Below are positions 2,731 through 13,776 of a stretch of DNA of 22,351 nucleotides, piece after piece. The notes beneath the pieces are model-generated. The model was not told where the DNA came from. It saw nothing but the letters and a program-made list of their open reading frames with translations, and did no database searches. Both the position numbers and the translations under genes were made by a program. How positions within the stretch are numbered: position 1 is the first letter of the stretch; each line of letters begins with the position of its first letter. Source of the DNA: a virus; the IMG/VR virus record IMGVR_UViG_3300034101_000782, positions 1 through 22,351 of that record; one strand, given 5' to 3'.

Positions 2731-4308
2731 TTAGTAGTACGCCGCTTTGCGGGCGCGGAAGAACGTGTCTTCCTTCTCGTCTGAGTCCAGACTGATGAAG
2801 CCCCCTTGGCGAAACCGCAGGAGCGCCTGGGTCATAGTGTCTACGAAGTCGTCGTGCTCGCCTACTGGGAACGCCGCTACCTCCTCGATCACCTCCCGCG
2901 CCCAGCGCGTGTCGGGTGCCCAGACTTTGCCGGAGGAGAACAGGTCAGCCACCGCGTTCATCCGCACCACCTTGTCATTGCCGCGCGACGGCGTGTACTC
3001 CGCCACTGGGATGCCCATGTTGCGCAGTTCATACATAAGCGGAGCGCCTGCGGCCTTCTTTTCCACGATGAACGCGTCGGGTTCCCACTCTTTATAGTGC
3101 TTGAGTGCGACTTGCTTGAGTTCAGGAAACGCCATCCGGTCTTTGAACGCGTCCAGCAGCATCAGTTGAGGGCTGTTGCCCTCTTCCTCGTTGTACCAAA
3201 CGCCCCACGTAGTGCAGGCGCTGAAGTCGGAGGTTGTCTTTGTCTCGTAGGCCGTGTCCCAAGACTGGATGATGTACTCACACGGCGGAGGATCGTCGTT
3301 TGGCCAGATGCGCCACAGGTGCCGCCCCACAATGGCAGAAGCGTCAGCCGTAGGCTGCTGCATGTACTGCGCGTTCCAGAACCTGGGGTCTAGGTTGGCC
3401 TTTTTAGACTTGAGTTGGTCCAGTGGCCACTGCTCTGGCCACAGAGACTTCTCGTTCTCGGTGTTTTCGTGCAGTATCGCGGGCAGTTCCACGACTTCCC
3501 ACTGATCCGCCTCTGGGTTCTTGGTCTGGTAGTCAATGAGACGCCCGGTGAGGTCAAGAAGTGACCACCGCGTCATGATGACTATGATGGCGCCCCCTGG
3601 CATCAAGCGTTGCAGCGGGCCTGTTTGGAACCAGTTCCACGCCGTGTCGAACGCGAGGCGGCTGTTGATCTTTATGTCCTGCTCAGAGTGTGGATCGTCA
3701 ATAACAAACAGATCAGCGCCGCGACCAGCCAGAGCACCACCGACACCAGCAGCGTAATACTGGCCTCCCTTGGAAGTAGACCACTTCCCGGCGGCTTTTT
3801 GGTCCTCAGCCACCAGCGTTTCCGGGAAAAGCTCGGCGTATTCATCCGAGTCGATCAGGTTTCTGATCCTCCGTCCGAAGTCTTCAGATAGAGACGCAGT
3901 GTGCGTGCCCATGATGATCTTCTTCTCGGGGAATTTACCCAGGAAGTACGCCGGAAACAAGTAAGAACTGAACTCGGACTTACCCATACGGGGCGCGATG
4001 TTGATGATCACCCGCTTTTTCTTACCCGCAAGTACGTCCTCGAAGATTCTGGCCAGTTTTTTGTGGTGCGGCCCCACCTTGAACCCCGGATAGACGTGTT
4101 TTGCAAAGCCAATGAGGTTCTTTTGGGCCAGATCACGCGAAAGTCGGCGCTCGCGCTCTTCCAAGTCCTCAAAAAGCTCCATCTTCTCCGCCAAAGACAT
4201 GCTTGGCAGAGCCGTCTGGATGGCAGAAAGCTCACGCGGGGTGAGACTGGTCAGCGTCTGAAGATTCATCGGTCGGCTGGGCGTGGTCCGGTTCTTCTGC
4301 GCCCACAT
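2731..4308 (-). CDS. Terminase large subunit (ATPase and nuclease)
   Basis: This is the motor protein that pumps DNA into the prohead through the portal and cuts the concatemer. About 525 residues, normal for the family. Visible motifs: Walker A APRMGKS (about 105-111), Walker B with acidic pair LFVIDDP (200-206), a coupling-type motif MTRWS (245-249), and the RNase H-like nuclease acids D351 (QSWDTAYETKTTSDFSA), E416 (FIVEKKAAG) and the C-terminal HDDFVD (485-490). The start is uncertain: ATG at 4308 and ATG at 4269 are both possible, neither has a clear ribosome site, and both overlap the 3' end of the upstream gene, so translation is probably coupled. The nuclease and ATPase motifs both look intact. 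The call rests on motifs seen and on the portal gene next door. Confidence 0.95.
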   Translation of the reverse strand: MWAQKNRTTPSRPMNLQTLTSLTPRELSAIQTALPSMSLAEKMELFEDLEERERRLSRDLAQKNLIGFAKHVYPGFKVGPHHKKLARIFEDVLAGKKKRVIINIAPRMGKSEFSSYLFPAYFLGKFPEKKIIMGTHTASLSEDFGRRIRNLIDSDEYAELFPETLVAEDQKAAGKWSTSKGGQYYAAGVGGALAGRGADLFVIDDPHSEQDIKINSRLAFDTAWNWFQTGPLQRLMPGGAIIVIMTRWSLLDLTGRLIDYQTKNPEADQWEVVELPAILHENTENEKSLWPEQWPLDQLKSKKANLDPRFWNAQYMQQPTADASAIVGRHLWRIWPNDDPPPCEYIIQSWDTAYETKTTSDFSACTTWGVWYNEEEGNSPQLMLLDAFKDRMAFPELKQVALKHYKEWEPDAFIVEKKAAGAPLMYELRNMGIPVAEYTPSRGNDKVVRMNAVADLFSSGKVWAPDTRWAREVIEEVAAFPVGEHDDFVDTMTQALLRFRQGGFISLDSDEKEDTFFRARKAAYY

Positions 4309-5252: not shown

Positions 5253-5278
5253 GCCCTGTGCCACACACGGGGCTTTTT
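5253..5278 (+). terminator. Leader terminator or attenuator before first early gene
   Basis: GCCCTGTG (5253-5260) pairs with CACGGGGC (5266-5273) over 8 bp, including one G-T pair, with a 5-base loop, followed by TTTTT. It stands 19 bases before the first early start codon and downstream of the candidate promoter. An upstream pair ATCGG/CCGAT (5223-5246) could form another hairpin. This arrangement suggests attenuation or antitermination; alternatively it ends a transcript entering from the left. Confidence 0.55.
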
Positions 5279-5297: not shown

Positions 5298-5729
5298 ATG
5301 AGCAAGAAAGTATTCGAGGGTTTGGTCGTCACCACAGCGATGGCGGCGGTGTTCGAGGATGTGGACAACACGTCCACGAGTTTCTGCGAGCGACTGCTCG
5401 CACTTGGCATCGGCGACCGCGCTACTGCGCGGCCATTCGTCATGCTGTGGGCGGCTAAGAAGTACAACGCCCGTATCGTGATGGGTCAACGCGGCGAGAC
5501 TTGGGCGGTGCGCGACTGCGATGCGTCACGCGCTACATCACGGGTTCTTGCCGCTTGCTTCCCAAGCGTTGATCTGCCCAAGCGCAAGGGGAACAGCAAG
5601 AGCAAGCCCGTGAAGTTCACGCGAGCCATGACTAGTGCCGCTAACTTGTTTCTCGCAGAGTTCGAGGGCAAAGACAAGGCCGCGCAGATCAAGCAAGCCT
5701 TGGCCCTGCTTCGTTCTTTGCAGAAGTAA
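5298..5729 (+). CDS. First early protein (unknown, 143 residues)
   Basis: ATG 5298 is chosen because AGGAG stands 7 bases upstream; the frame could be opened further upstream without a ribosome site. The product begins MSKKVFEGLVVTTAMAAVF and is basic in its C-terminal half (a Lys-rich stretch LPKRKGNSKSKPVKF near residues 95-109), ending in a helical segment. I see no helix-turn-helix or metal motif I would trust. A copy of the 27-bp palindrome lies inside the coding sequence and encodes VDNTSTS at about residues 22-28. As the first gene after the leader, it would be expressed early, and the basic region would fit nucleic acid binding, but no function can be assigned from sequence. Confidence 0.72.
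   Translation: MSKKVFEGLVVTTAMAAVFEDVDNTSTSFCERLLALGIGDRATARPFVMLWAAKKYNARIVMGQRGETWAVRDCDASRATSRVLAACFPSVDLPKRKGNSKSKPVKFTRAMTSAANLFLAEFEGKDKAAQIKQALALLRSLQK
5356..5382. repeat. 27-bp palindrome, copy 1 (within first early gene)
   Basis: Core GTGGAC-AACAC-GTCCAC at 5361-5377. The left flank AGGAT departs from the consensus AACTY, while the right flank GAGTT matches. It is translated as VDNTSTS in the first early gene. Confidence 0.85.
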
Positions 5730-5754
5730 CTTGTGGACAGTTCGTCCACGAGTT
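5728..5754. repeat. 27-bp palindrome, copy 2 (after first early gene)
   Basis: Core GTGGAC-AGTTC-GTCCAC at 5733-5749 with flanks AACTT and GAGTT. It begins in the stop codon of the first early gene and is followed by the hairpin at 5761. Confidence 0.9.
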
Positions 5755-5760
5755 TTCCAG

Positions 5761-5802
5761 GCGGCGATTCCTGCGAGGGGGTCGCCGCTATTTCTTTTCT
5801 TG
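5761..5802 (+). terminator. Hairpin with T-rich tail before second early gene
   Basis: GCGGCGA (5761-5767) pairs with TCGCCGC (5782-5788) around a 14-base loop, followed by a T-rich tail TATTTCTTTTCTT. It lies 18 bases upstream of the start at 5820. The loop is large and the T tract interrupted, so termination may be partial. Confidence 0.45.
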
Positions 5803-5819
5803 TCAAAGGAGCAATGACC

Positions 5820-5981
5820 ATGAAGAAGCAATTCACCACCAAGACCATCGACCGCAACACTGGCCGCGAGATCAAGAAAGCCCTGCGCGAAGAGCGCAAG
5901 GCCAAGGCACGCGCCAACGAGATCAAGCACCGCGCCAACGAGTCCGAGTGGCAAGCCGAACTGCGCCGCCTCGGTTTCTAA
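5820..5981 (+). CDS. Small highly charged protein (unknown, 53 residues)
   Basis: The product is rich in Lys, Arg and Glu and predicted to be one long amphipathic helix or coiled coil (KKALREERKAKARANEIKH at about residues 18-36). An AAAGGAG site precedes two in-frame ATG codons, at 5814 and 5820; the second is better spaced. The charge pattern would fit an RNA- or DNA-binding or host-takeover peptide, but no family is recognised. Palindrome copies flank it on both sides (copy 2 upstream, copy 3 overlapping its stop). Confidence 0.65.
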   Translation: MKKQFTTKTIDRNTGREIKKALREERKAKARANEIKHRANESEWQAELRRLGF

Positions 5982-6006
5982 CTCGTGGACAACTTGTCCA
6001 CAACAT
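5980..6006. repeat. 27-bp palindrome, copy 3 (after second early gene)
   Basis: Core GTGGAC-AACTT-GTCCAC at 5985-6001 with left flank AACTC; the right flank AACAT is imperfect. It overlaps the stop codon region of the 53-residue gene and opens the repeat-rich gap that follows. Its right arm, TTGTCCACA, is one base from the DnaA box TTATCCACA. Confidence 0.9.
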
Positions 6007-6014
6007 CTTGTGGA

Positions 6015-6045
6015 GATACCCTAGTAAAAACCCTGAGTGGGTATC
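6015..6045. repeat. Inverted repeat GATACCC/GGGTATC
   Basis: Perfect 7-bp arms (6015-6021 and 6039-6045) around a 17-base spacer. The 9-mer AGTGGGTAT that includes the right arm recurs at 6343-6351, just before the next gene. Confidence 0.6.
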
Positions 6046-6082
6046 GCGTCCTCGATCCCACACTAGTGGACATCGCGTGGAC

Positions 6083-6112
6083 ACCCGCAAACCCGCGCCA
6101 ACACTAGCGTCC
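6083..6112. repeat. Direct repeat, copy 1
   Basis: Shares a 16-base identical core AACCCGCGCCAACACT (6090-6105) with a second copy 177 bases downstream. The core runs into CGCCA..TAGCG, a degenerate short dyad. Confidence 0.65.
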
Positions 6113-6126
6113 ACCCACAACCACCC

Positions 6127-6170
6127 CTTACTTACCTATCTCTATATCTATATAAAAAAGGATAAGTAAG
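6127..6170. repeat. AT-rich dyad (possible unwinding element)
   Basis: Perfect 8-bp arms CTTACTTA (6127-6134) and TAAGTAAG (6163-6170) enclose 28 bases made almost only of A and T with a few C and G. It is the most AT-rich spot in an otherwise GC-rich window, as expected of a DNA unwinding element or an unusual cruciform. Confidence 0.6.
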
Positions 6171-6207
6171 TGTGTGTATGCGGTGGACGCTCTTGTTGTC
6201 CGGGAAG

Positions 6208-6236
6208 TTGGTCTTTCCCTAAGTGCACTCTAAAAT
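6208..6236 (+). promoter_or_regulatory. Candidate sigma70-like promoter
   Basis: TTGGTC (6208-6213), a 17-base spacer and TAAAAT (6231-6236). The -35 lies in a short dyad GGGAA/TTCCC (6202-6220) that could be an operator. It would serve the zinc-protein gene at 6388 with a leader of about 145 bases. Confidence 0.55.
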
Positions 6237-6259
6237 GAGATAGGTATGTTGAGACAAAA

Positions 6260-6290
6260 ACCCCGCAACCCGCGCCAACACTGGCGCTCC
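6260..6290. repeat. Direct repeat, copy 2
   Basis: Second copy of the repeat at 6083, with the identical 16-base core at 6267-6282. Here the core ends in CGCCA-ACAC-TGGCG, a perfect 5-bp hairpin. Confidence 0.65.
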
Positions 6291-6387
6291 CGCTGTCCAG
6301 GAAATGTCCACTAGCGTGGAATCCAGGACGCAAACGGCTTCAAGTGGGTATGCCGTCCACAAAACACCCCCAAACAGGAGCAAAACG

Positions 6388-7155
6388 ATGCCCGACACAC
6401 GCATCTGCACATCTTGCAACACCACTCAACCCGCCGCCAAGTTCCGCGCTTGGATGAGCAAGAAAGAAGCCCTTGGCCGAGGCTACAGCGGCGAGCGCCG
6501 CATCCTTTATGTCTCCTCGCTGTGCCAAACCTGCCGCGCCGCACTCAAGCGCAAGCCAACCAACACCACCATCAAACATATCCAAAACCGCATCGGCTCG
6601 GGTGACTTGCACCCGCTGGTCGGCAAGTCTTGGATAGCCAAGCGCCGGGACAACGCCAAGGCCAAGCAAGCGCAAGCCATCGCCAAGGCATGGCGCAAAG
6701 CAGACCGCGCCACCTACAAACCCGCACTCGACTCACTCAGAAAGGAACTGCTATGGACTCAGGGCCAGATCAACTACCGCTACCCCAAGACCCCGACCGC
6801 ACCGCCCGACCAACTCTATGCCCACTTCCTGCTCCCGTACCGGGTGCTGCTCCAACGCATCAAGGCGCACATCAACGACATCATCAACGCCCCCACCAAA
6901 CAACGCACCAACCCCAACATACCCACCCATCGCATCCCCCACGCTCAGTTCGCAGACTGGGAGGACTACGCCACTGAAGACCAACGCACCCTGGTGCAAA
7001 CCCTATGGAACAACCTACCTGAAGAAGAAAGGAGGAAGGTGCGCCACACCCCGGCGCTCATCTCGTGGCGTGCAGCAGAGCAACGCCGCGCACCACCCGC
7101 AAGGCCCACACGCCCTGCGAAAAAGAAACTCGTGGACAAGGTGTCCACAACTTAA
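6388..7155 (+). CDS. Zinc-binding protein with two CxxC pairs (unknown)
   Basis: This is a 255-residue basic protein. ATG 6388 is chosen because AGGAG lies upstream (11 bases); an in-frame start at 6304 has no usable ribosome site. C7-x2-C10 and C46-x2-C49 form a probable zinc ribbon at the N-terminus, a layout found in some phage HNH-like and recombination proteins, although no HNH catalytic histidine is evident. The middle is Lys/Arg/Ala-rich and helical and the C-terminus is Pro/Arg/Lys-rich. The last residues LVDKVSTT are encoded by palindrome copy 4. DNA or RNA binding is a reasonable inference; the exact function is unknown. Confidence 0.72.
   Translation: MPDTRICTSCNTTQPAAKFRAWMSKKEALGRGYSGERRILYVSSLCQTCRAALKRKPTNTTIKHIQNRIGSGDLHPLVGKSWIAKRRDNAKAKQAQAIAKAWRKADRATYKPALDSLRKELLWTQGQINYRYPKTPTAPPDQLYAHFLLPYRVLLQRIKAHINDIINAPTKQRTNPNIPTHRIPHAQFADWEDYATEDQRTLVQTLWNNLPEEERRKVRHTPALISWRAAEQRRAPPARPTRPAKKKLVDKVSTT
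7127..7153. repeat. 27-bp palindrome, copy 4 (end of zinc-protein gene)
   Basis: Core GTGGAC-AAGGT-GTCCAC at 7132-7148 with flanks AACTC and AACTT. It encodes the C-terminal LVDKVSTT of the zinc protein, and the AAAGGAG of the next gene follows at once. Confidence 0.92.
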
Positions 7156-7167
7156 AGGAGAAAGCAA

Positions 7168-7764
7168 ATGGCTACATACCTCGACGACTCAGCGCGTTCC
7201 AACATCGTGAGCAAGATCATGGACGATGTGCCCACAACCAACATCGACACGATCAAGCAACAGATACAGGACGCACTCTACTTACTCATGAAACCGGAGA
7301 TCGCTGACTTCCACAAGCAGTACGGCGAGAAGCATCCCGATATGTTCAAGACCGACTACTACGAGTACACCTTCAACTTGGGTCGCTTCTTTTGGGGCAA
7401 CCTCAAGGCAGTAAGCCCAACACTCGATGGGTTCAAGCCACTGGAAGACTACTCGGAGTTGCAGCGGAAGCAAAGCGAGATGCGGGAGAAGCTGCAGGCC
7501 ATGTTCAAAACCTGCCGCACAGTGAAGTCACTGCACGAGAAGTACCCCGAGTTTGCCAAGTACTACCCCGCTGACGACACCGTCCCAACCATACGCAACA
7601 AGTCAGGCAAGACAGCCGAGGAGTTAGCGGCACTAGCCGAGGCCAAGCGCAAGCAAGAAGAGGAGGAAGCCAAGCGCAGACTGAACGCGTTCAGTGTTGC
7701 AGCCAACCTGTCTGCCCTCGGGTGGACACCCAGTGAAACCAACGAGAAAGGAGCAATGCAATGA
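7168..7764 (+). CDS. Unknown early protein (198 residues)
   Basis: The start is secured by AAAGGAG at 7154-7160. The N-terminal segment (ARSNIVSKIMDDVP followed by helices and YGEKHPDMF) loosely resembles phage proteins annotated as nucleotide-modification-associated (Nmad5-like); I hold this as a weak suggestion only. Residues about 150-172 are a charged Glu/Lys/Ala coiled coil (EELAALAEAKRKQEEEEAKR). It has no membrane segment or cysteine cluster. The final codons ATG CAA TGA are part of the next gene's ribosome-site cassette, giving a 4-base ATGA overlap with the NinX-family gene. Confidence 0.7.
   Translation: MATYLDDSARSNIVSKIMDDVPTTNIDTIKQQIQDALYLLMKPEIADFHKQYGEKHPDMFKTDYYEYTFNLGRFFWGNLKAVSPTLDGFKPLEDYSELQRKQSEMREKLQAMFKTCRTVKSLHEKYPEFAKYYPADDTVPTIRNKSGKTAEELAALAEAKRKQEEEEAKRRLNAFSVAANLSALGWTPSETNEKGAMQ
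7741..7763 (+). promoter_or_regulatory. Ribosome-site cassette, copy A
   Basis: AGAAAGGAGCAATGCAATG precedes the NinX-family gene. The first ATG, CAA and TGA form a two-codon frame whose stop overlaps the true start (ATGA). In this copy these are the last codons of the upstream gene. Confidence 0.65.
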
Positions 7765-8075
7765 AGATCAAGACGAGTGAACTGACCGGAGCCGCGCTCG
7801 ACTGGATGGTGTGCGTGTGTGAAGGCGAATCCCCGAGCCGATACACCCGGTACTCAACCGACTGGGCGCAAGGTGGCCCGATCATTGAGAAGGAGAAGAT
7901 CGATGTGGTTTATGTGGGGTATGCACAATCAGATGACAAGCAATGGGTTGCGATGGATAAGAGCTACGGCCCCACGCCACTGGTCGCAGCCATGCGGTGC
8001 TATGTGGCAAGCCAACTCGGTGACGAGGTGGATGTGCCTGACGAACTCGTGGACAAGTTGTCCACAAGTGTTTAA
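7761..8075 (+). CDS. NinX-family phage protein (DUF2591)
   Basis: This 104-residue protein strongly resembles the P22 NinX / DUF2591 family: N-terminal MKIKTSELTGAALDWMV, a central YSTDWAQGGPIIE, then GPTPLVAAMRCYVASQLGD. The family is widespread in phages and its molecular role is not established. The start is fixed by AAAGGAG and the ATGA overlap with the preceding gene. The usual family C-terminus is followed here by DKLSTSV, encoded by palindrome copy 5, as if the palindrome had extended the frame. Family assignment is from recognised sequence; no function is claimed. Confidence 0.85.
   Translation: MKIKTSELTGAALDWMVCVCEGESPSRYTRYSTDWAQGGPIIEKEKIDVVYVGYAQSDDKQWVAMDKSYGPTPLVAAMRCYVASQLGDEVDVPDELVDKLSTSV
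8044..8070. repeat. 27-bp palindrome, copy 5 (end of NinX-family gene)
   Basis: Core GTGGAC-AAGTT-GTCCAC at 8049-8065 with flanks AACTC and AAGTG. It is the most symmetric copy and encodes ELVDKLSTS at the end of the NinX-family protein, in the same reading frame as copies 1 and 4. Its right arm contains TTGTCCACA. Confidence 0.92.
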
Positions 8076-8101
8076 CCAACCAAGAAAGGAGCAATGCAAT
8101 G
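8074..8101 (+). promoter_or_regulatory. Ribosome-site cassette, copy B
   Basis: AACCAACCAAGAAAGGAG followed by CAATGCAATG. Apart from the upstream leader it is nearly identical to the copies at 8867 and 11156. It contains the two-codon frame ATG CAA TGA overlapping the start at 8099. Confidence 0.7.
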
Positions 8102-8419
8102 ACTACGAACAAGGTGATATTGCAACGCAGGTGGAACAACCTGCGTAAGAACATGGAGCACATGGAGAAACTGATCCTTGAACTTATGCGTAACCCTGCC
8201 ACTGAACCTGAACACATGGCGCAAGCACACGCCATGTATGCCAACGCCGCCAAGCAGATCAGTGAGATCAGCGCGAGTGTGGACAACGCGTTGAGGGGCG
8301 TGGCTCAGCCCGAGCCGAAGCCGGTCTATGTCTGTGTCTGCGGTTGCACCGAGCCACCGATGAAGTCCATAGATCACCCCGATGTTTGGCCCTCATGCCC
8401 CAACTGCGGAATGGTTTGA
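8099..8419 (+). CDS. Unknown protein with C-terminal zinc ribbon
   Basis: A 106-residue product. Residues 1-66 form Met/Glu/Lys-rich helices; the C-terminus carries cysteines C79, C81, C83, C100 and C103 (VCVCGCTEPP...CPNCGMV), consistent with a small zinc ribbon. The start is secured by the repeated AAAGGAGCAATGCAATG cassette. It is one of several Cys-rich small proteins in this early block. Possible roles are binding to nucleic acid or to a host protein; no family is recognised. Confidence 0.75.
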   Translation: MTTNKVILQRRWNNLRKNMEHMEKLILELMRNPATEPEHMAQAHAMYANAAKQISEISASVDNALRGVAQPEPKPVYVCVCGCTEPPMKSIDHPDVWPSCPNCGMV

Positions 8420-8432
8420 AAGGAGAAAGCAA

Positions 8433-8639
8433 ATGACAACAGACAACACCAACAACCCCAACGATCCATTCCTTGCACACGAGGCGCTGGATCGCACTTA
8501 CTTGGTGGCGTGCATGGTGGACAGCCACCTGCTAGATCACCCCTACATGGCACGCAACAAGGATGTGCGGAAGCTGATCAGCCGCGCTTCTGACGCACTC
8601 AACAAAGCCTATCAACTCATTGGAGAAAAGACACTATGA
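8433..8639 (+). CDS. Small unknown protein (68 residues)
   Basis: ATG 8433 is preceded by AAAGGAGAAAGCAA, the same ribosome-site form as the gene at 7168. The protein has an Asn/Asp/Thr-rich N-terminus and then helices (NKDVRKLISRASDALNKAYQ at about residues 42-61). Its length and helical character resemble many small phage proteins. It ends in an ATGA overlap with the next gene, so the two are probably made together. No function can be assigned. Confidence 0.7.
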   Translation: MTTDNTNNPNDPFLAHEALDRTYLVACMVDSHLLDHPYMARNKDVRKLISRASDALNKAYQLIGEKTL

Positions 8640-8869
8640 AAAACGGAATCATCATCAACGACTGGTCTGTAGTACCCACGCCCGACAACCTGGGTTTAGC
8701 ACTCAAGCCCTTGTTCGAGGATCAGTACGAGATATGCGTAGCCATACGCGAGGGGTACATCGAGGTGTCGCTTCATGCGGACGGGGTGTACTCGGAACTC
8801 GCATCTATGACCTACAAAGTTTCCTACCAACTCACGGCAGACGACATCGCCATGCCAACCATCGACTAA
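8636..8869 (+). CDS. Small unknown protein (77 residues)
   Basis: It starts inside the stop of the previous gene (ATGA), with GGAG 9 bases upstream. The sequence is acidic and beta-rich (YEICVAIREGYIEVSLHADG at about residues 30-49), lacking membrane segments or cysteine clusters. It is followed after 19 bases by the repeated ribosome-site cassette of the 335-residue gene. It is probably a small soluble phage protein; no family is recognised. Confidence 0.7.
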   Translation: MKNGIIINDWSVVPTPDNLGLALKPLFEDQYEICVAIREGYIEVSLHADGVYSELASMTYKVSYQLTADDIAMPTID

Positions 8870-8891
8870 CCAAGAAAGGAGCAATGCAATG
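8867..8891 (+). promoter_or_regulatory. Ribosome-site cassette, copy C
   Basis: TAACCAAGAAAGGAGCAATG and then CAATG, with the two-codon frame ATG CAA TGA overlapping the start at 8889. It begins at the stop codon of the preceding gene. Confidence 0.7.
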
Positions 8892-9896
8892 ACTAGATCA
8901 ACACACCACTCAGCCGATGTGCGTAACTACACACTGGCACAAGCGCACTTCAAAAACATCAAGCCCGTGCGCTCAAGTTCGTGGCCTGCCAACACCAGAC
9001 CACTGCACCCCAAGCGCGGCTCTTACCCGCAGTACAAACTGATCGAACAAGATGGTGGCAAGTACTACGACATCGTGCTGTACGAAACCATCATGGGCAG
9101 GCACTACGCTCAGGCAGAGGACGGTTCGTACACCTCGTACTACAACAACCACAACACCGCACTCAGCCGTGACTTTCTCTACGACACGCTGCGTAGAAAC
9201 TGGGCCAACGAGATCACCGATACCAACGGCAAGCAAGTTATTGTGCACATCGGGTTCTCAGACACCAAGCACTACTGCGTTGACCCGACAGATGGGCAGA
9301 AGTTCTCAACGCGCATAGTGCTCGTGCAATCACCGACCGACCCAAACAAGTGGCGCATCGACACGGCACGCTCACACGAGGCCAAGTTCTACAGCAAGGT
9401 ATCGACTGACGCCGACAAGCAAGCCCGTGCTCAGTTGCGACAGCGGCTTGAGACTCTGGTTGAGATGGCCGCGCTTCGCTTGCCACAGATGGCGCGTGAT
9501 GCTGACCCTCAGCGGTGGAAGGGTGAGCCGTTCTCATCGTGGCCGTCCAACGCCAAACGCAAATTCCTAGACATGCGTGGGCTGTGCGACCTGAGAGTTG
9601 TGCTCGAAGACGCATGGACAGACGAGGCACGCACTGCGTTCTTCGACGCCGCGCAGCATGTCTACGATACCTTGCTGAGCAAGCGTGCGTATGTCGAGGT
9701 GCGGGGTGCGTGGGACTCGACCTTTGCCGATGCGTGTAACAAGATGATTGATGGGATAACCGAGAAGGATTTCACGCAGTCCTTCATGCGCTTTCTCATC
9801 GACAGATCGGGCAACAACACACAACGCGGACGCAAGTATCTGCCGCAGTTTTCTGCCCCTGGGGAATGGCCCCGTACTGGGGTTTTTGCTGAGTAG
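8889..9896 (+). CDS. Unknown phage protein (335 residues) upstream of ATPase/VWA module
   Basis: The start is secured by the AAAGGAG cassette. The N-terminal half is Tyr-rich with the segment YYDIVLYETIMGRHYAQAED (about residues 58-77) and then SYTSYYNNHNTALSRDFLYD. The C-terminal half is mainly helical with many Arg, Asp and Ala residues. I recognise no enzyme motif. It directly precedes the AAA+/VWA/DUF3150 genes but is separated from them by its own terminator-like sequence and a promoter, so it may be read separately. It could be a partner or target of that module, which is only a guess from position. Confidence 0.75.
   Translation: MTRSTHHSADVRNYTLAQAHFKNIKPVRSSSWPANTRPLHPKRGSYPQYKLIEQDGGKYYDIVLYETIMGRHYAQAEDGSYTSYYNNHNTALSRDFLYDTLRRNWANEITDTNGKQVIVHIGFSDTKHYCVDPTDGQKFSTRIVLVQSPTDPNKWRIDTARSHEAKFYSKVSTDADKQARAQLRQRLETLVEMAALRLPQMARDADPQRWKGEPFSSWPSNAKRKFLDMRGLCDLRVVLEDAWTDEARTAFFDAAQHVYDTLLSKRAYVEVRGAWDSTFADACNKMIDGITEKDFTQSFMRFLIDRSGNNTQRGRKYLPQFSAPGEWPRTGVFAE
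9868..9887 (+). terminator. Weak terminator inside 3' end of the 335-residue gene
   Basis: CCCC (9870-9873) pairs with GGGG (9879-9882), extendable by two G-T pairs, with a five-base loop, followed by TTTTT (9883-9887). It lies just before the stop codon and before the next promoter. The stem is short, so efficiency is doubtful. Confidence 0.35.
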
Positions 9897-9924
9897 TTTG
9901 TTACTGAAAGGAGGTAATTTGATA

Positions 9925-9953
9925 TTGTCAAAGGATGGACAGGGGGGTATACT
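9925..9953 (+). promoter_or_regulatory. Sigma70-like promoter of the ATPase/VWA operon
   Basis: TTGTCA (9925-9930), exactly 17 bases, then TATACT (9948-9953); each box has one mismatch to consensus. Transcription would start near 9960. It is the best promoter in the window. The -10 lies in the loop of a 7-bp dyad (9939-9961), and palindrome copy 6 lies just downstream of the start, so regulation is likely. Confidence 0.78.
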
Positions 9954-9961
9954 TCCCCTGT
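9939..9961. promoter_or_regulatory. Dyad ACAGGGG/CCCCTGT spanning the -10 box
   Basis: Perfect 7-bp arms (9939-9945 and 9955-9961) around nine bases that contain the TATACT box. Its position suggests an operator for a dimeric regulator, distinct from the GTGGAC palindromes. Confidence 0.5.
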
Positions 9962-9964
9962 TCA

Positions 9965-9991
9965 AAGTCGTGGACGCGGTGTCCACAAGTT
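9965..9991. repeat. 27-bp palindrome, copy 6 (in leader of ATPase operon)
   Basis: Core GTGGAC-GCGGT-GTCCAC at 9970-9986 with flanks AAGTC and AAGTT. It lies at about +5 to +31 relative to the predicted start of the promoter at 9925, where a bound protein could block transcription or where the transcript would carry a hairpin 30 bases before the start codon. Confidence 0.9.
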
Positions 9992-10021: not shown

Positions 10022-11158
10022 ATGGCTATCTATCTCAACTTCGAGCAGACCCTCAACGCGCTGATCAACCTCGGCGACAAGCGCACGATACTCGTGCAGG
10101 GCGAGAACGGCATCGGCAAGACCGCGCTGTTCCACGCAATGAAGCGGCATCCCAAGTTCATCAACCACATCGCGGTTGACCCCATCGACTGCACCCAGTT
10201 GTCCGATGGTTCGGTGTGGATGCCTGACATTGACCGTGAGCATGGCGTATCCCGTGAGTTGCCCAACGAGCGGTTCGGTCTGAGCCACACCAATCAGAAG
10301 GGTGTCAACGGTGCGCGTCCCATCCTTGTGTTCTTCGATGAGATTGCCAAGGCTCGTCAGTACATCAAGGACACCATCGCCCCCATCATCTATGAGCATC
10401 GACTCGGTGCGTATCACGCGCCTGATGGTTCGACTATCTTCGCGGCAACCAACCTTGCTATCGAGGGACTGGGCGACTCCATCCAAGCGCACCTGCGTAA
10501 CCGACTCGTTGTCATCAAGATGCGTAAGCCCACTATGGAGGAGTGGGTCAAGTGGGCGTATGCCAACGGCATCCACGAGTACATCATTGCGTTCTGCATG
10601 GAGTACCCGATGGTGTTCGACTCGTTCATCGACTACGAGCAGGGCGGCAAGTTCGAGGGCAGGAATCTGTCCAAGGACAACGGCCACATCTTCAACCCCA
10701 AGATTCAGCAAGATGCGTATGCTTCGCCGCGCTCCCTGCATGCGGCGTCTGACATATTGCACAAGTGCTTGAATATTGTTGACGACGACACGCTCGAAGC
10801 CCTGCTCACTGGTGCGGTGGGCGAGGTCACATCCAAGTCCATCGGTTCGTTCGTGCGCTTCGGCCATCAGGTCACGCCGTTCGAGCGTGTGCTCCACGAT
10901 CCTGCCAACGCACCGCTGACTGACAACGCAGGTGTGCAGTTGGTGCAGGTGTTGCAGTTCATCAACCGCACCAAGTCTCGTGACGAGGCAGACAAGGTGC
11001 TCGTGTATGTGAACCGCATGAAGGAGGAGATGCAGTCGGTGTTCTGCACTCAACTTGCCAACAGCGCAGACAGCACGCCCAGTGCCCTGCACTTCGGCAC
11101 TAACAAGAAGTTCGCGGACTTGCTTGCCAAGCACCGCATCTACTTCGGCACTAAGTAA
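10022..11158 (+). CDS. MoxR/CobS-like AAA+ ATPase
   Basis: This 378-residue ATPase carries Walker A GENGIGKT (27-34), Walker B LVFFDE (102-107), a sensor-1 asparagine in AATNLA (N144) and arginines HLRNR (158-161) placed like an arginine finger. These features and the gene order resemble MoxR/CobS-type AAA+ proteins, which work with a VWA-domain partner to remodel or insert metal into target proteins. ATG 10022 is chosen because AAGGAG precedes it; an upstream in-frame start at 9935 would translate the promoter region. The next gene encodes a VWA protein, and the third a DUF3150-type protein. Phage copies are often annotated as cobalt chelatase subunits, but no cobalamin genes are seen here, so that label would be misleading. 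The target is unknown. Confidence 0.88.
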   Translation: MAIYLNFEQTLNALINLGDKRTILVQGENGIGKTALFHAMKRHPKFINHIAVDPIDCTQLSDGSVWMPDIDREHGVSRELPNERFGLSHTNQKGVNGARPILVFFDEIAKARQYIKDTIAPIIYEHRLGAYHAPDGSTIFAATNLAIEGLGDSIQAHLRNRLVVIKMRKPTMEEWVKWAYANGIHEYIIAFCMEYPMVFDSFIDYEQGGKFEGRNLSKDNGHIFNPKIQQDAYASPRSLHAASDILHKCLNIVDDDTLEALLTGAVGEVTSKSIGSFVRFGHQVTPFERVLHDPANAPLTDNAGVQLVQVLQFINRTKSRDEADKVLVYVNRMKEEMQSVFCTQLANSADSTPSALHFGTNKKFADLLAKHRIYFGTK

Positions 11159-11184
11159 CCAACCAAGAAAGGAGCAATGCCATG
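11156..11184 (+). promoter_or_regulatory. Ribosome-site cassette, copy D
   Basis: TAACCAACCAAGAAAGGAG followed by CAATGCCATG. It matches copy B except that the second ATG is preceded by CC, so the two-codon frame with a TGA stop is lost. Confidence 0.65.
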
Positions 11185-12384
11185 TCATTCGAGAAACTAA
11201 CACTCCAACAGCGTGTGTCTGCGGCCAACATCGACTGCATGCGTCACCCTGCCTTCTGTCAGTTCACTGCCTACATTGCGATGGGCAAGTCTGAGGTACA
11301 GACAGCGGTCAAGACTGCATGCACCAATGGCCGTGACAAGTTGTACGGCGCTGAGTTCATCAAGCCACTCAACCGCAAGCAGATGCGCTACCTCGTCATG
11401 CACGAGAACCTGCATGTGGCCCTGCGTCACTGCACTGGCTACAAAGCGGTGTCGCGCAAGTACCCCAAGTTAGCCAACATCGCCAAGGACTATGTGGTCA
11501 ACGGCATCATCGAGGAGCTTGACCCCAACTTCCTGTTCGTTGAGCGCCCGACTCCAACCATCCTCATCGACCCCAAGTATTTCGGGTGGTCATTCCCGCA
11601 AGTCTTCAACGACTTGTTCAAGAACGGCAAGGGTGGTGGCGGCGAGGGTGGTGACGAGGATGGTGGCGGCGACTTCAATGAACCCATCGACGCACACGAG
11701 GAGATGGAGTTCGCTGACGAGGAGGCCGAGCGCCAACACGAGCGCGAGATCGAGGACGCTGCTCGGCAAGGCCAGTTGATTGCCAAGCGCATGGCGGGTA
11801 AGGGTAGTGGTGGCCGGGACATCTTCGGCACTGCGGCGCACCGTGACACTGACTGGGTGTCTGCGTTGCAGGACTGGATCGCATCGGTGTCCGAGGGTGA
11901 CGACCTGTCTCGCTTCTGTCCTCCCAACAAGCGCATGCTTGCCGCAGGGTTCGTGATGCCTTCGCACTTCAGCGAGTCGCTCGGCGAGTTGGTCATCGCT
12001 TGCGATACCTCGGGTTCGATGGGGCCGTACTACACCAACATCTTCGGTGAAGTTGCGCGTATCTGCGAGACGACCAAGCCTGCCAAGGTGCGCGTGCTGT
12101 GGTGGGACACGTCAGTATGTGGTGACCAAGAGTTCGCCCCTGGCGACTACGACCGCATCGCATCCCTGCTCAAGCCTGCGGGTGGCGGCGGCACTACGCC
12201 CGATGTAGTTGTGCAGTATCTCAAGGAGAAGAAGATCAACGCCAAGGGTCTGGTCTGGCTAACAGATGGGTACATCGGTTGCGACACGCCACGCACCGAC
12301 ATGCCTGCGATTTGGGGAGTGGTCAATAACGATACGTTCGTGCCTCAGCACGGCAAGGTTCTTCACATCAACGTCAACGTTTAA
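11182..12384 (+). CDS. Metallopeptidase-like plus VWA-domain protein
   Basis: This 400-residue protein has two recognisable parts. The N-terminal half contains HENLH (74-78) followed by ALRH, the HExxH pattern of the putative metallopeptidase domain (DUF2201_N type). A Gly/Asp/Glu-rich linker (about 150-190) follows. The C-terminal half is a von Willebrand A domain with an intact MIDAS: DTSGS (275-279), the Thr in GGGTTPD (338-339) and TDGY (361-364). Such proteins pair with MoxR-type ATPases, as the gene just upstream encodes. The start is fixed by AAAGGAG. Whether the HENLH site is catalytic cannot be told from sequence. It should act in the cytoplasm, since no signal peptide is present. 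Confidence 0.9.
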   Translation: MSFEKLTLQQRVSAANIDCMRHPAFCQFTAYIAMGKSEVQTAVKTACTNGRDKLYGAEFIKPLNRKQMRYLVMHENLHVALRHCTGYKAVSRKYPKLANIAKDYVVNGIIEELDPNFLFVERPTPTILIDPKYFGWSFPQVFNDLFKNGKGGGGEGGDEDGGGDFNEPIDAHEEMEFADEEAERQHEREIEDAARQGQLIAKRMAGKGSGGRDIFGTAAHRDTDWVSALQDWIASVSEGDDLSRFCPPNKRMLAAGFVMPSHFSESLGELVIACDTSGSMGPYYTNIFGEVARICETTKPAKVRVLWWDTSVCGDQEFAPGDYDRIASLLKPAGGGGTTPDVVVQYLKEKKINAKGLVWLTDGYIGCDTPRTDMPAIWGVVNNDTFVPQHGKVLHINVNV

Positions 12385-12406
12385 TCAACTGTAAAGGAGC
12401 AAGCAC

Positions 12407-13294
12407 ATGAATACTCAAGTTACCCCCCGCTACAACATCGACACCTGCGCCATGCTCGTGGAGTTCAACGCTTCGGTGTGGACTGCGCGCAAGTTGGATC
12501 GCTCAACCACTGAGGAAGTTGTTACCAACAAGAACGCGGCGGCTAAGGATGCCGCACGTGTCAACAAGCACTTGCTTGCCGGGCGCAGTGAGTTGGATGT
12601 GGTGCAGCAACTGGTCAACCGTGTGCGTACCTTCGTGTACGACAACACCCTGCCGTGGTCTGACTCGGGCCTGCGCCTGTTGCCCACCAAGAACTTCATC
12701 AAGTTCACCGACAAGATGAACGACTTCGAGTCGGAGTTCGAGGCAACCGTCAACGCGTTTGTGGCTATCTATCCCACGCTCATCACTGCTCAGGCGATGG
12801 CGCTCGGTGACATGTTCAAGCGCGACGACTACCCAACTGCCAATGAGATCGTTACCAAGTTCTCGTTCCGAGTCAACTACATGCCTGTGCCTACTGCGGG
12901 TGACTTCCGGGTTGACGTAGGCAATGCGGCTCAACAAGAATTGCAAACCAAGTTGGCTCAACTCGCTGACGAGCGTGTCGAGGCGGCGATGGCAGATGTG
13001 CGTGCACGACTGGGCGACCACCTCAAGCGTATGTCTGACCGACTCACTACCGACACCGTGGCAGGTGAAGCCAAGGCGCGTAGGTTCCACGGCTCCCTTG
13101 TCGATGGCGCCTTGGAGTTGTGCGACTTGATCAAGACGCTCAACGTGGTGGGTGACGCCACACTCGAAGCAGCACGTCACGAGTTGGAGCAAGCACTGGT
13201 CGGTGTCACGCCTGACGAGTTGCGTAAGAACGAAGCCGTACGTGACGATACCAAGAAAGCAGTTGACTCGATCCTTGGTCGGTTCAACTTCTAA
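12407..13294 (+). CDS. DUF3150-type protein
   Basis: This 295-residue protein is largely alpha-helical and hydrophilic, without membrane segments or cysteine clusters. The overall pattern (an N-terminal VEFNASVWTARKLD, a central KFTDKMNDFESEFE, and a segment RVNYMPVPTAGDFRVDVG at about 161-178) resembles the DUF3150 family, which I recall being found in phages beside ATPase and VWA genes. The function is unknown. ATG 12407 has AAAGGAG upstream and the gene is 22 bases after the VWA gene, so the three form one operon from the promoter at 9925. It ends at a strong hairpin that probably closes the operon. The third subunit of a remodelling complex is the simplest reading. Confidence 0.75.
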   Translation: MNTQVTPRYNIDTCAMLVEFNASVWTARKLDRSTTEEVVTNKNAAAKDAARVNKHLLAGRSELDVVQQLVNRVRTFVYDNTLPWSDSGLRLLPTKNFIKFTDKMNDFESEFEATVNAFVAIYPTLITAQAMALGDMFKRDDYPTANEIVTKFSFRVNYMPVPTAGDFRVDVGNAAQQELQTKLAQLADERVEAAMADVRARLGDHLKRMSDRLTTDTVAGEAKARRFHGSLVDGALELCDLIKTLNVVGDATLEAARHELEQALVGVTPDELRKNEAVRDDTKKAVDSILGRFNF

Positions 13295-13371: not shown

Positions 13372-13776
13372 ATGAAAAAACAAACGCAAGAAACCAACGC
13401 AACCGAAAACGTGGCCCCGACCACCCCGACCATCCCCACCAAAACCAACAAGGCTGCGCTCGTCAGAGTGCTGCTCAAGCAGAAGAAGACTGCGAAACAA
13501 ATCGCCGCTGATGTTGGGTGCAAGCCGCAGTACGTTTACAGCGTGCAGAACCACGACCGCGTCAAGGCACGCAAGGCCAAGGCCAAGCGAGATTACGAGC
13601 GCAGGAAAGAGATCGCTGCAGGCTCGGTCAAGCGCAAGTACGTCAAGAGTGGCAAGTTTGCGAAGAAGGCAGCGCCAGAGGTTCGCACTCAGTACATCGA
13701 GATCGAGGTTCCGCAACCGCACTACAACCTGACATGGAGCCAGCGTTTCAAGGCACTGTTCACTGGGAGGGTTTGA
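13372..13776 (+). CDS. Small helix-turn-helix DNA-binding protein
   Basis: This is a 134-residue, strongly basic protein. Residues about 27-60 (KAALVRVLLKQKKTAKQIAADVGCKPQYVYSVQNH) form a helix-turn-helix of the type found in small regulators, with the recognition helix around KPQYVYSVQNH. A Thr/Pro-rich tail precedes it and a Lys/Arg-rich helix follows. ATG 13372 has AGGAG upstream. It follows a pair of hairpins that probably separate it from the ATPase operon. It is a candidate regulator for the palindromes in this window, but nothing in the sequence links them directly. Confidence 0.75.
   Translation: MKKQTQETNATENVAPTTPTIPTKTNKAALVRVLLKQKKTAKQIAADVGCKPQYVYSVQNHDRVKARKAKAKRDYERRKEIAAGSVKRKYVKSGKFAKKAAPEVRTQYIEIEVPQPHYNLTWSQRFKALFTGRV

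Follow-up and report, generated by a model that had tools for sequence, protein, structure and literature searches.

Which protein reads the six copies of the palindrome GTGGAC-N5-GTCCAC in the early region of the IMG/VR virus record IMGVR_UViG_3300034101_000782, and what would it do there? In the following, "the window" means the whole stretch of this record that was analysed (22,351 bases), and "word" means the arm sequence of such a palindrome. We found that the word follows the first early gene in inheritance and not the neighbouring genes. As the word changes together with this gene, the first early gene very probably encodes its reader. The gene and the six sites are:

5298..5729, plus strand: first early gene (143 amino acids, basic, isoelectric point (pI) 10.0); putative palindrome reader, judged from co-variation in relatives
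5356..5382, palindrome 1 (core 5361-5377): about 60 bp past the start of the first early gene, at codons ~22-27; reversed relative to sites 3-6
5728..5754, palindrome 2 (core 5733-5749): 3 bp past the stop of the first early gene, with an intrinsic-terminator-like hairpin right after it
5980..6006, palindrome 3 (core 5985-6001): 3 bp past the stop of the second early gene
7127..7153, palindrome 4 (core 7132-7148): covers the final codons of the zinc-finger gene; the next ribosome-binding site (RBS) follows ~6 bp on
8044..8070, palindrome 5 (core 8049-8065): covers the final codons of the NinX-like gene
9965..9991, palindrome 6 (core 9970-9986): just 3' of a sigma-70-like promoter, before the MoxR-like gene

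All six exact matches (17-bp cores) lie where a first-pass annotation of the letters alone had placed them, its positions being the starts of 27-mers, 5 bp before the cores. Its statement that the 22 kb hold no further copy is correct even with one mismatch allowed: the window contains neither a seventh exact copy nor a site with one mismatch. In 100 dinucleotide shuffles of the window the expected number of GTGGAC-N5-GTCCAC sites was 0 and the largest count 0, versus the six seen. Perfect 6+6 palindromes with a 5-bp spacer occur 13 times in the window; six of them have the GTGGAC arm, and no other arm is found twice. The flanks AACTY/RAGTT ascribed to the sites are kept only in part, since site 1 has GAGGAT on its left and site 3 AACAT on its right.

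All sites are bounded on one side by the divergent terminase/portal genes (minus strand) and on the other by the MoxR-VWA-DUF3150 genes (plus strand). Sites 2, 3 and 6 do sit between genes, and so, roughly, do 4 and 5, which overlap last codons, but site 1 is intragenic. Because palindromes 4 and 5 overlap coding sequence, they fix the C-terminal ends of two unrelated proteins (KLVDKVSTT, window 7127-7155, and ELVDKLSTSV, 8044-8075). Judged from asymmetries of flank and spacer, sites 1 and 2 point the opposite way to sites 3-6: their left neighbour is T (not C), their right neighbour G (not A), and their spacer ends with C (not T).

As relatives we fetched 55 loci from virus contigs (L numbers below) by means of the MoxR-like protein (46-60% identity). 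The window's own word was present in only two of them, L005 and L008; L062 and L063, near-identical to the window, retain it. Nearly all relatives with enough upstream DNA have a repeated palindrome of their own, and at least 14 words were found. With a 5-bp spacer these include GTAGAC, GTGGAG, GTGGGA, GTTGAC (ten copies), GGTGTG, GGGGTG, GCAGAG and GGGAC; with other spacers, GGGGAC-n6, GGACGG-n4, GGACAG-n4, GGGTTC-n4 and others. A family of at least three exact copies (3-10 each) was present in 31 of the 33 loci with an assigned word, versus none of 330 Markov-shuffled controls. Gene boundaries accommodate 136 of 171 sites, versus 30% of random 17-mers, and the sites are frequently found 3-25 bp past a stop codon or immediately 5' of an RBS. 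In the long records, the exact words covered by a degenerate scan are confined to the early region, besides scattered matches outside the families. The first-pass annotation had considered a regulatory role unlikely if related phages lacked the sites at matching positions. The word is indeed mostly absent in distant relatives, but architecture and spacing are kept while the word changes, so its absence was misleading as a refutation.

For the co-variation analysis, gene families were clustered across loci. Every locus with coverage has a plus-strand first gene of 121-158 codons, with a palindrome just before or inside it and often another just past its stop. The protein families encoded by these genes are mostly joined by weak but significant matches and a common C-terminal motif; the proteins of the window, L032 and L052 have diverged beyond the reach of BLAST, and their placement relies on position and alignment. 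Ranked by identity of the first early protein, same-word and different-word pairs fall apart almost completely, with an area under the curve (AUC) of 1.000 after rounding, versus 0.88-0.97 for other genes. This protein's lowest same-word identity is 41% and its highest different-word identity 48%; for other genes, phages that differ in word can be as much as 77-99% identical. Phages with GGACRG-n4 form a single clade on the first-gene tree (support 99.9), a clade that is rejected by the MoxR (approximately unbiased (AU) test, p 1.6e-13), VWA (7e-68) and TerL (0.012) trees; those with GTGGAG-n5 behave alike with weaker first-gene-tree support (84.8). The palindrome words were already known when these two groups were named. 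Counting word changes by parsimony (13 on the MoxR, 12 on the TerL and 13 on the first-gene tree) did not discriminate. In L046 and L049 the zinc-finger and MoxR proteins are 99% identical, but the first proteins share only 19% identity and the words differ. Here the palindrome behind MoxR has been replaced in place inside otherwise matching DNA, so that the downstream sites are not accounted for by their being physically linked to the first gene. In our view it is highly probable that the sites have a function and that they are inherited along with the first early gene.

Some phages have mixed words. In L091, the first gene and two sites belong to GTAGAC, and two later sites (9642 and 10558) are GGACAG; L042 retains one GTAGAC relic at 13255; and L079 has a GTGGAC site at 3203 where near relatives carry GTGGAG. 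These phages are probably recombinants or assembly chimeras. L091 and L042, both metagenome assemblies, look like recombinants awaiting conversion, with chimerism possible for L091.

Three kinds of reader had been put forward in the first-pass annotation: a helix-turn-helix (HTH) protein (13372-13776), the zinc proteins and the first early protein. Co-variation with the word favours the last. The zinc-finger protein (6388..7155) is excluded as source of specificity by its 99%-identical copies in L046 and L049, whose words differ. The HTH protein was rejected as well: it has no homologue among the relatives' proteins and weak PHROG hits at best. As for the first early protein, it is basic in every family sampled (pI 8.9-11.7). 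The window's version matched neither Pfam nor PHROG families at E <= 1, and tblastn against phages found nothing. AlphaFold2 predicted for the L043 homologue the order helix-helix-strand-strand-helix, a linker and two further helices (predicted local distance difference test score (pLDDT) 85, predicted template modelling score (pTM) 0.56).

The surroundings of the sites include:

5253..5273, plus strand: intrinsic-terminator-like hairpin with a T run, in the first early gene's leader; several relatives likewise have leader terminators
5760..5789, plus strand: intrinsic-terminator-like hairpin directly after palindrome 2
6388..7155, plus strand: zinc-finger-like (CxxC) early protein, with palindromes on both sides
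9925..9953, plus strand: promoter-like TTGTCA-17-TATACT, a consensus match; palindrome 6 would fall just past its start point
10022..11158, plus strand: MoxR-like AAA ATPase behind palindrome 6; anchor for fetching relatives

We favour with moderate confidence the reading in which the six palindromes serve the first early protein as its set of operators, in a stoperator-like early repression. The basic protein would bind each palindrome on DNA, probably as a dimer whose two halves would contact half-sites 11 bp apart, i.e. one helical turn. Once bound, it would repress the early operon, its own gene included, mainly as a roadblock to elongating RNA polymerase at gene boundaries; repression by roadblock seems rather likely to us. 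A second action is proposed for site 6, where the protein would sit at the start of the MoxR operon promoter. In the window (site 6) as in L032 and L043, the site before MoxR begins 17-22 bp past the start of a near-consensus -10 element; among the palindromes in general, promoter-like elements were not enriched. Several palindromes end 13-20 bp short of the next start codon, over or beside the RBS. The early-region regulon proposed in the first-pass annotation is supported. Its remark that the sites lack a T tract stands for most sites of the window but not for some relatives with a terminator-like first site: in L043, L033, L046, L050 and L051 the first palindrome itself bears a T run. Together with the leader terminators, this suggests attenuation in the early leader.

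Is the target DNA or RNA? Within a phage the arms are all-or-none: among the sites scanned, 152 were exact, four had one mismatch and none was a compensated pair, although one site in L079 may be such a pair. Spacer length is constant in 12 of the 14 word families though spacer sequence varies, and in several families some copies stand in the opposite orientation, L015 even having exact reverse complements. Pairing of the flanks does not exceed that of shuffles (339 Watson-Crick pairs versus 357, standard deviation 12), and G-U pairs are not enriched. All of this favours DNA.

The strongest competing explanation, which we nevertheless hold to be rather unlikely, has the first early protein bind hairpins in the mRNA and act on termination or antitermination (cf. 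lambda N and HK022 Nun at boxB), on RNA processing or on translation. The reader gene would be the first of the early operon, as is lambda N, the transcribed strand offers stems of 5-6 bp with 5-nt loops, and leader terminators near the first gene as well as terminator-like first sites in some relatives are points for RNA. Several further observations weigh against our operator reading. In the GGGGAC family, spacer lengths are 6, 7 and 4, and the GTAGAC and GGGGAC sites hold a single spacer orientation, both of which would be more natural for RNA hairpins; contiguous paired runs beside the core are slightly in excess (P 0.011, weakly significant). A search of PDB and BFVD with the fold of the L043 homologue gave no significant match and no known DNA-binding fold; its weak best matches are KH domains (Z ~4), and KH domains bind single strands. 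For the window's own protein the model is poor (pLDDT 51), with a similar order of elements; what ties it to the other families is its position, its length, the order of elements and weak similarity, with no significant BLAST hit. An RNA target, on the other hand, would have to be reconciled with a loop of fixed length but variable sequence, with the missing compensated pairs and flank co-variation, and with the reversed copies. Moreover, no boxA word (GCTCTT, CTCTTA or CGCTCT) was found within 50 bp of 130 sites, a search that a diverged boxA could escape; there was no relevant Rfam match; and the leader terminator of the window precedes the first site. The RNA processing hairpins considered in the first-pass annotation are less likely, though still conceivable. 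We judge DNA to be about three times as likely a target as RNA, and the first early protein probably binds the palindromes as duplex DNA.

Sites for replication, partition or packaging (DnaA boxes, parS-like sites, origin iterons) in place of transcription control are improbable. The half-site TTGTCCACA, present at sites 1, 3 and 5, does resemble a DnaA box, and further such half-sites occur in an origin-like region beside site 3. However, host DnaA boxes would not vary by phage along with one phage gene, and the sites follow gene boundaries. Instead of one constant word determined by the host, there are the many words of the relatives; the DnaA-box reading of TTGTCCACA was rejected, since the word changes between relatives together with a phage gene. 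The origin-like region itself (window 6000-6390) consists of an AT-rich core, a 38-nt inverted repeat (6046-6083 / 6294-6331) and solitary GTGGAC/GTCCAC boxes. Such boxes cluster at the same place in L034, L038, L039 and L042, whose palindromes use other words. They remain GTGGAC even in phages with GTAGAC or GGACAG palindromes and so appear to form a system separate from the palindromes.

Still less probable, to a degree that makes it very doubtful, is that the palindromes are hairpin promoters for an N4-type phage RNA polymerase or activator sites of the next gene. The sites do precede early genes and N4-like phages hold distant relatives of MoxR, but a homologue of the N4-type virion RNA polymerase was detected in none of ten relatives, with a control record matched, and N4-type promoters were therefore rejected. 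Where sites end 13-20 bp before a start codon, a transcript start has no room, and both orientations occur. A search for single-subunit RNA polymerase (PF00940) gave no match, the control likewise remaining without one. The MoxR-like ATPase belongs to a conserved block (window 10022-13294) with a DUF2201 VWA protein and a DUF3150 protein. As a separate observation, L061 (Rhizobium phage RHph_TM3_14A, MN988472) contains ~28 TTACC-N5/6-GGTAA palindromes across its whole 50-kb stretch, both within and between genes, structural genes included.

A dispersed repeat (REP- or MITE-like; repetitive extragenic palindrome or miniature inverted-repeat transposable element) or a recombination by-product with no regulatory role, as several near-identical short palindromes in intergenic DNA might suggest, is hardly credible: the copies share the palindrome alone, positions recur across lineages while the word changes, and the word is co-inherited with one gene. 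Local recombination, raised in the first-pass annotation as a possible origin of the six copies, is unlikely: the flanks are not carried along with the sites, and one word is swapped for another in place between otherwise near-identical genes.

Returning to the operator set read by the first early protein, each lineage would have drifted to a private word; with a lineage-specific word, related phages would not see one another's regulator, as between immunity groups. Integrases were not found in the related records (PF00589 in 15, PF07508 in 10, some of them maybe incomplete; parABS was not searched). Megablast against phages gave no match, and the only trace of related prophages in 84,980 species genomes was one 5.9-kb contig of a metagenome-assembled genome. 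With neither a tyrosine or serine integrase nor a related prophage, the data suggest that these phages are virulent, bearing in mind that the records may be incomplete. We can tentatively imagine, as a possibility rather than an expectation, that a new family of small basic early proteins, unlike any recognised sequence family or fold, reads the palindromes sequence-specifically and sets a word code, and that protein and all scattered sites are rewritten as a set between apparently virulent close relatives, which would amount to immunity or incompatibility groups without lysogeny. If the phages are indeed virulent, one may ask why a phage without lysogeny would need a private operator code. 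The relatives show co-evolution of such a protein and its target words and supply at least 14 natural reader-word pairs, among them close relatives whose readers and words are different while several neighbouring genes are nearly alike, as well as the apparent mixed-word recombinants. It can thus be asked how a regulator and its scattered sites shift specificity jointly, and which residues set the word. Early-region operator sets with a co-diverging reader are real and are undescribed in the open-access literature covered; no published description of this palindrome system was found in a partial open-access library.

Several known systems invite comparison. Dispersed short palindromes with a single protein reader are known from the KorB operators of plasmid RK2 and the SopB/ParB sites of F and N15, and some relatives' words (TGGGACAnnnTGTCCCA) resemble SopB sites; unlike there, the reader has no ParB-like match and the word differs between close relatives. 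In lambda N/nut and HK022 Nun/nut, a first early gene is combined with phage-specific hairpin-forming sites in the early operon. Here, in contrast, the loop varies from site to site within a phage, with no conserved GNRA-like boxB loop, and there are up to ten sites and reversed copies. Lambdoid immunity regions (CI/Cro) have palindromic operators read by a phage protein whose specificity varies among relatives, but their operators are clustered at two promoters, whereas the present sites are spread along the operon at gene ends.

The first-pass annotation had pointed to mycobacteriophage stoperators, and this comparison is supported. Cluster A mycobacteriophages (L5, Bxb1, TipsytheTRex) have a short site in many copies, in short intergenic spaces and as promoter operators, and stoperator site and phage-encoded repressor co-diverge between lineages; the sites are asymmetric 13-mers, bound by a monomer, with more than 20 per genome and mostly in one orientation, and the phages are temperate (PMC6550527, PMC9283540). 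Their repressors, homologous to that of L5, carry an N-terminal HTH, and their sites stop elongation once the repressor is bound. As in Cluster A, most sites of the present phages are found at boundaries, site 6 lies behind a promoter-like element, and the site diverges with its reader (AUC and clade tests above). Unlike the asymmetric 13-bp sites, however, the present ones are perfect 6+6 palindromes with extended partial symmetry over ~17-27 bp. Moreover, there are 3-10 of them per phage, in the early region only and in both orientations in several families, and the reader has no HTH recognised by Pfam, PHROG or fold searches. As the site is not asymmetric and no temperate-phage genes such as an integrase were found, we do not class the system as a member of the Cluster A stoperators; by analogy, it may still work like them.

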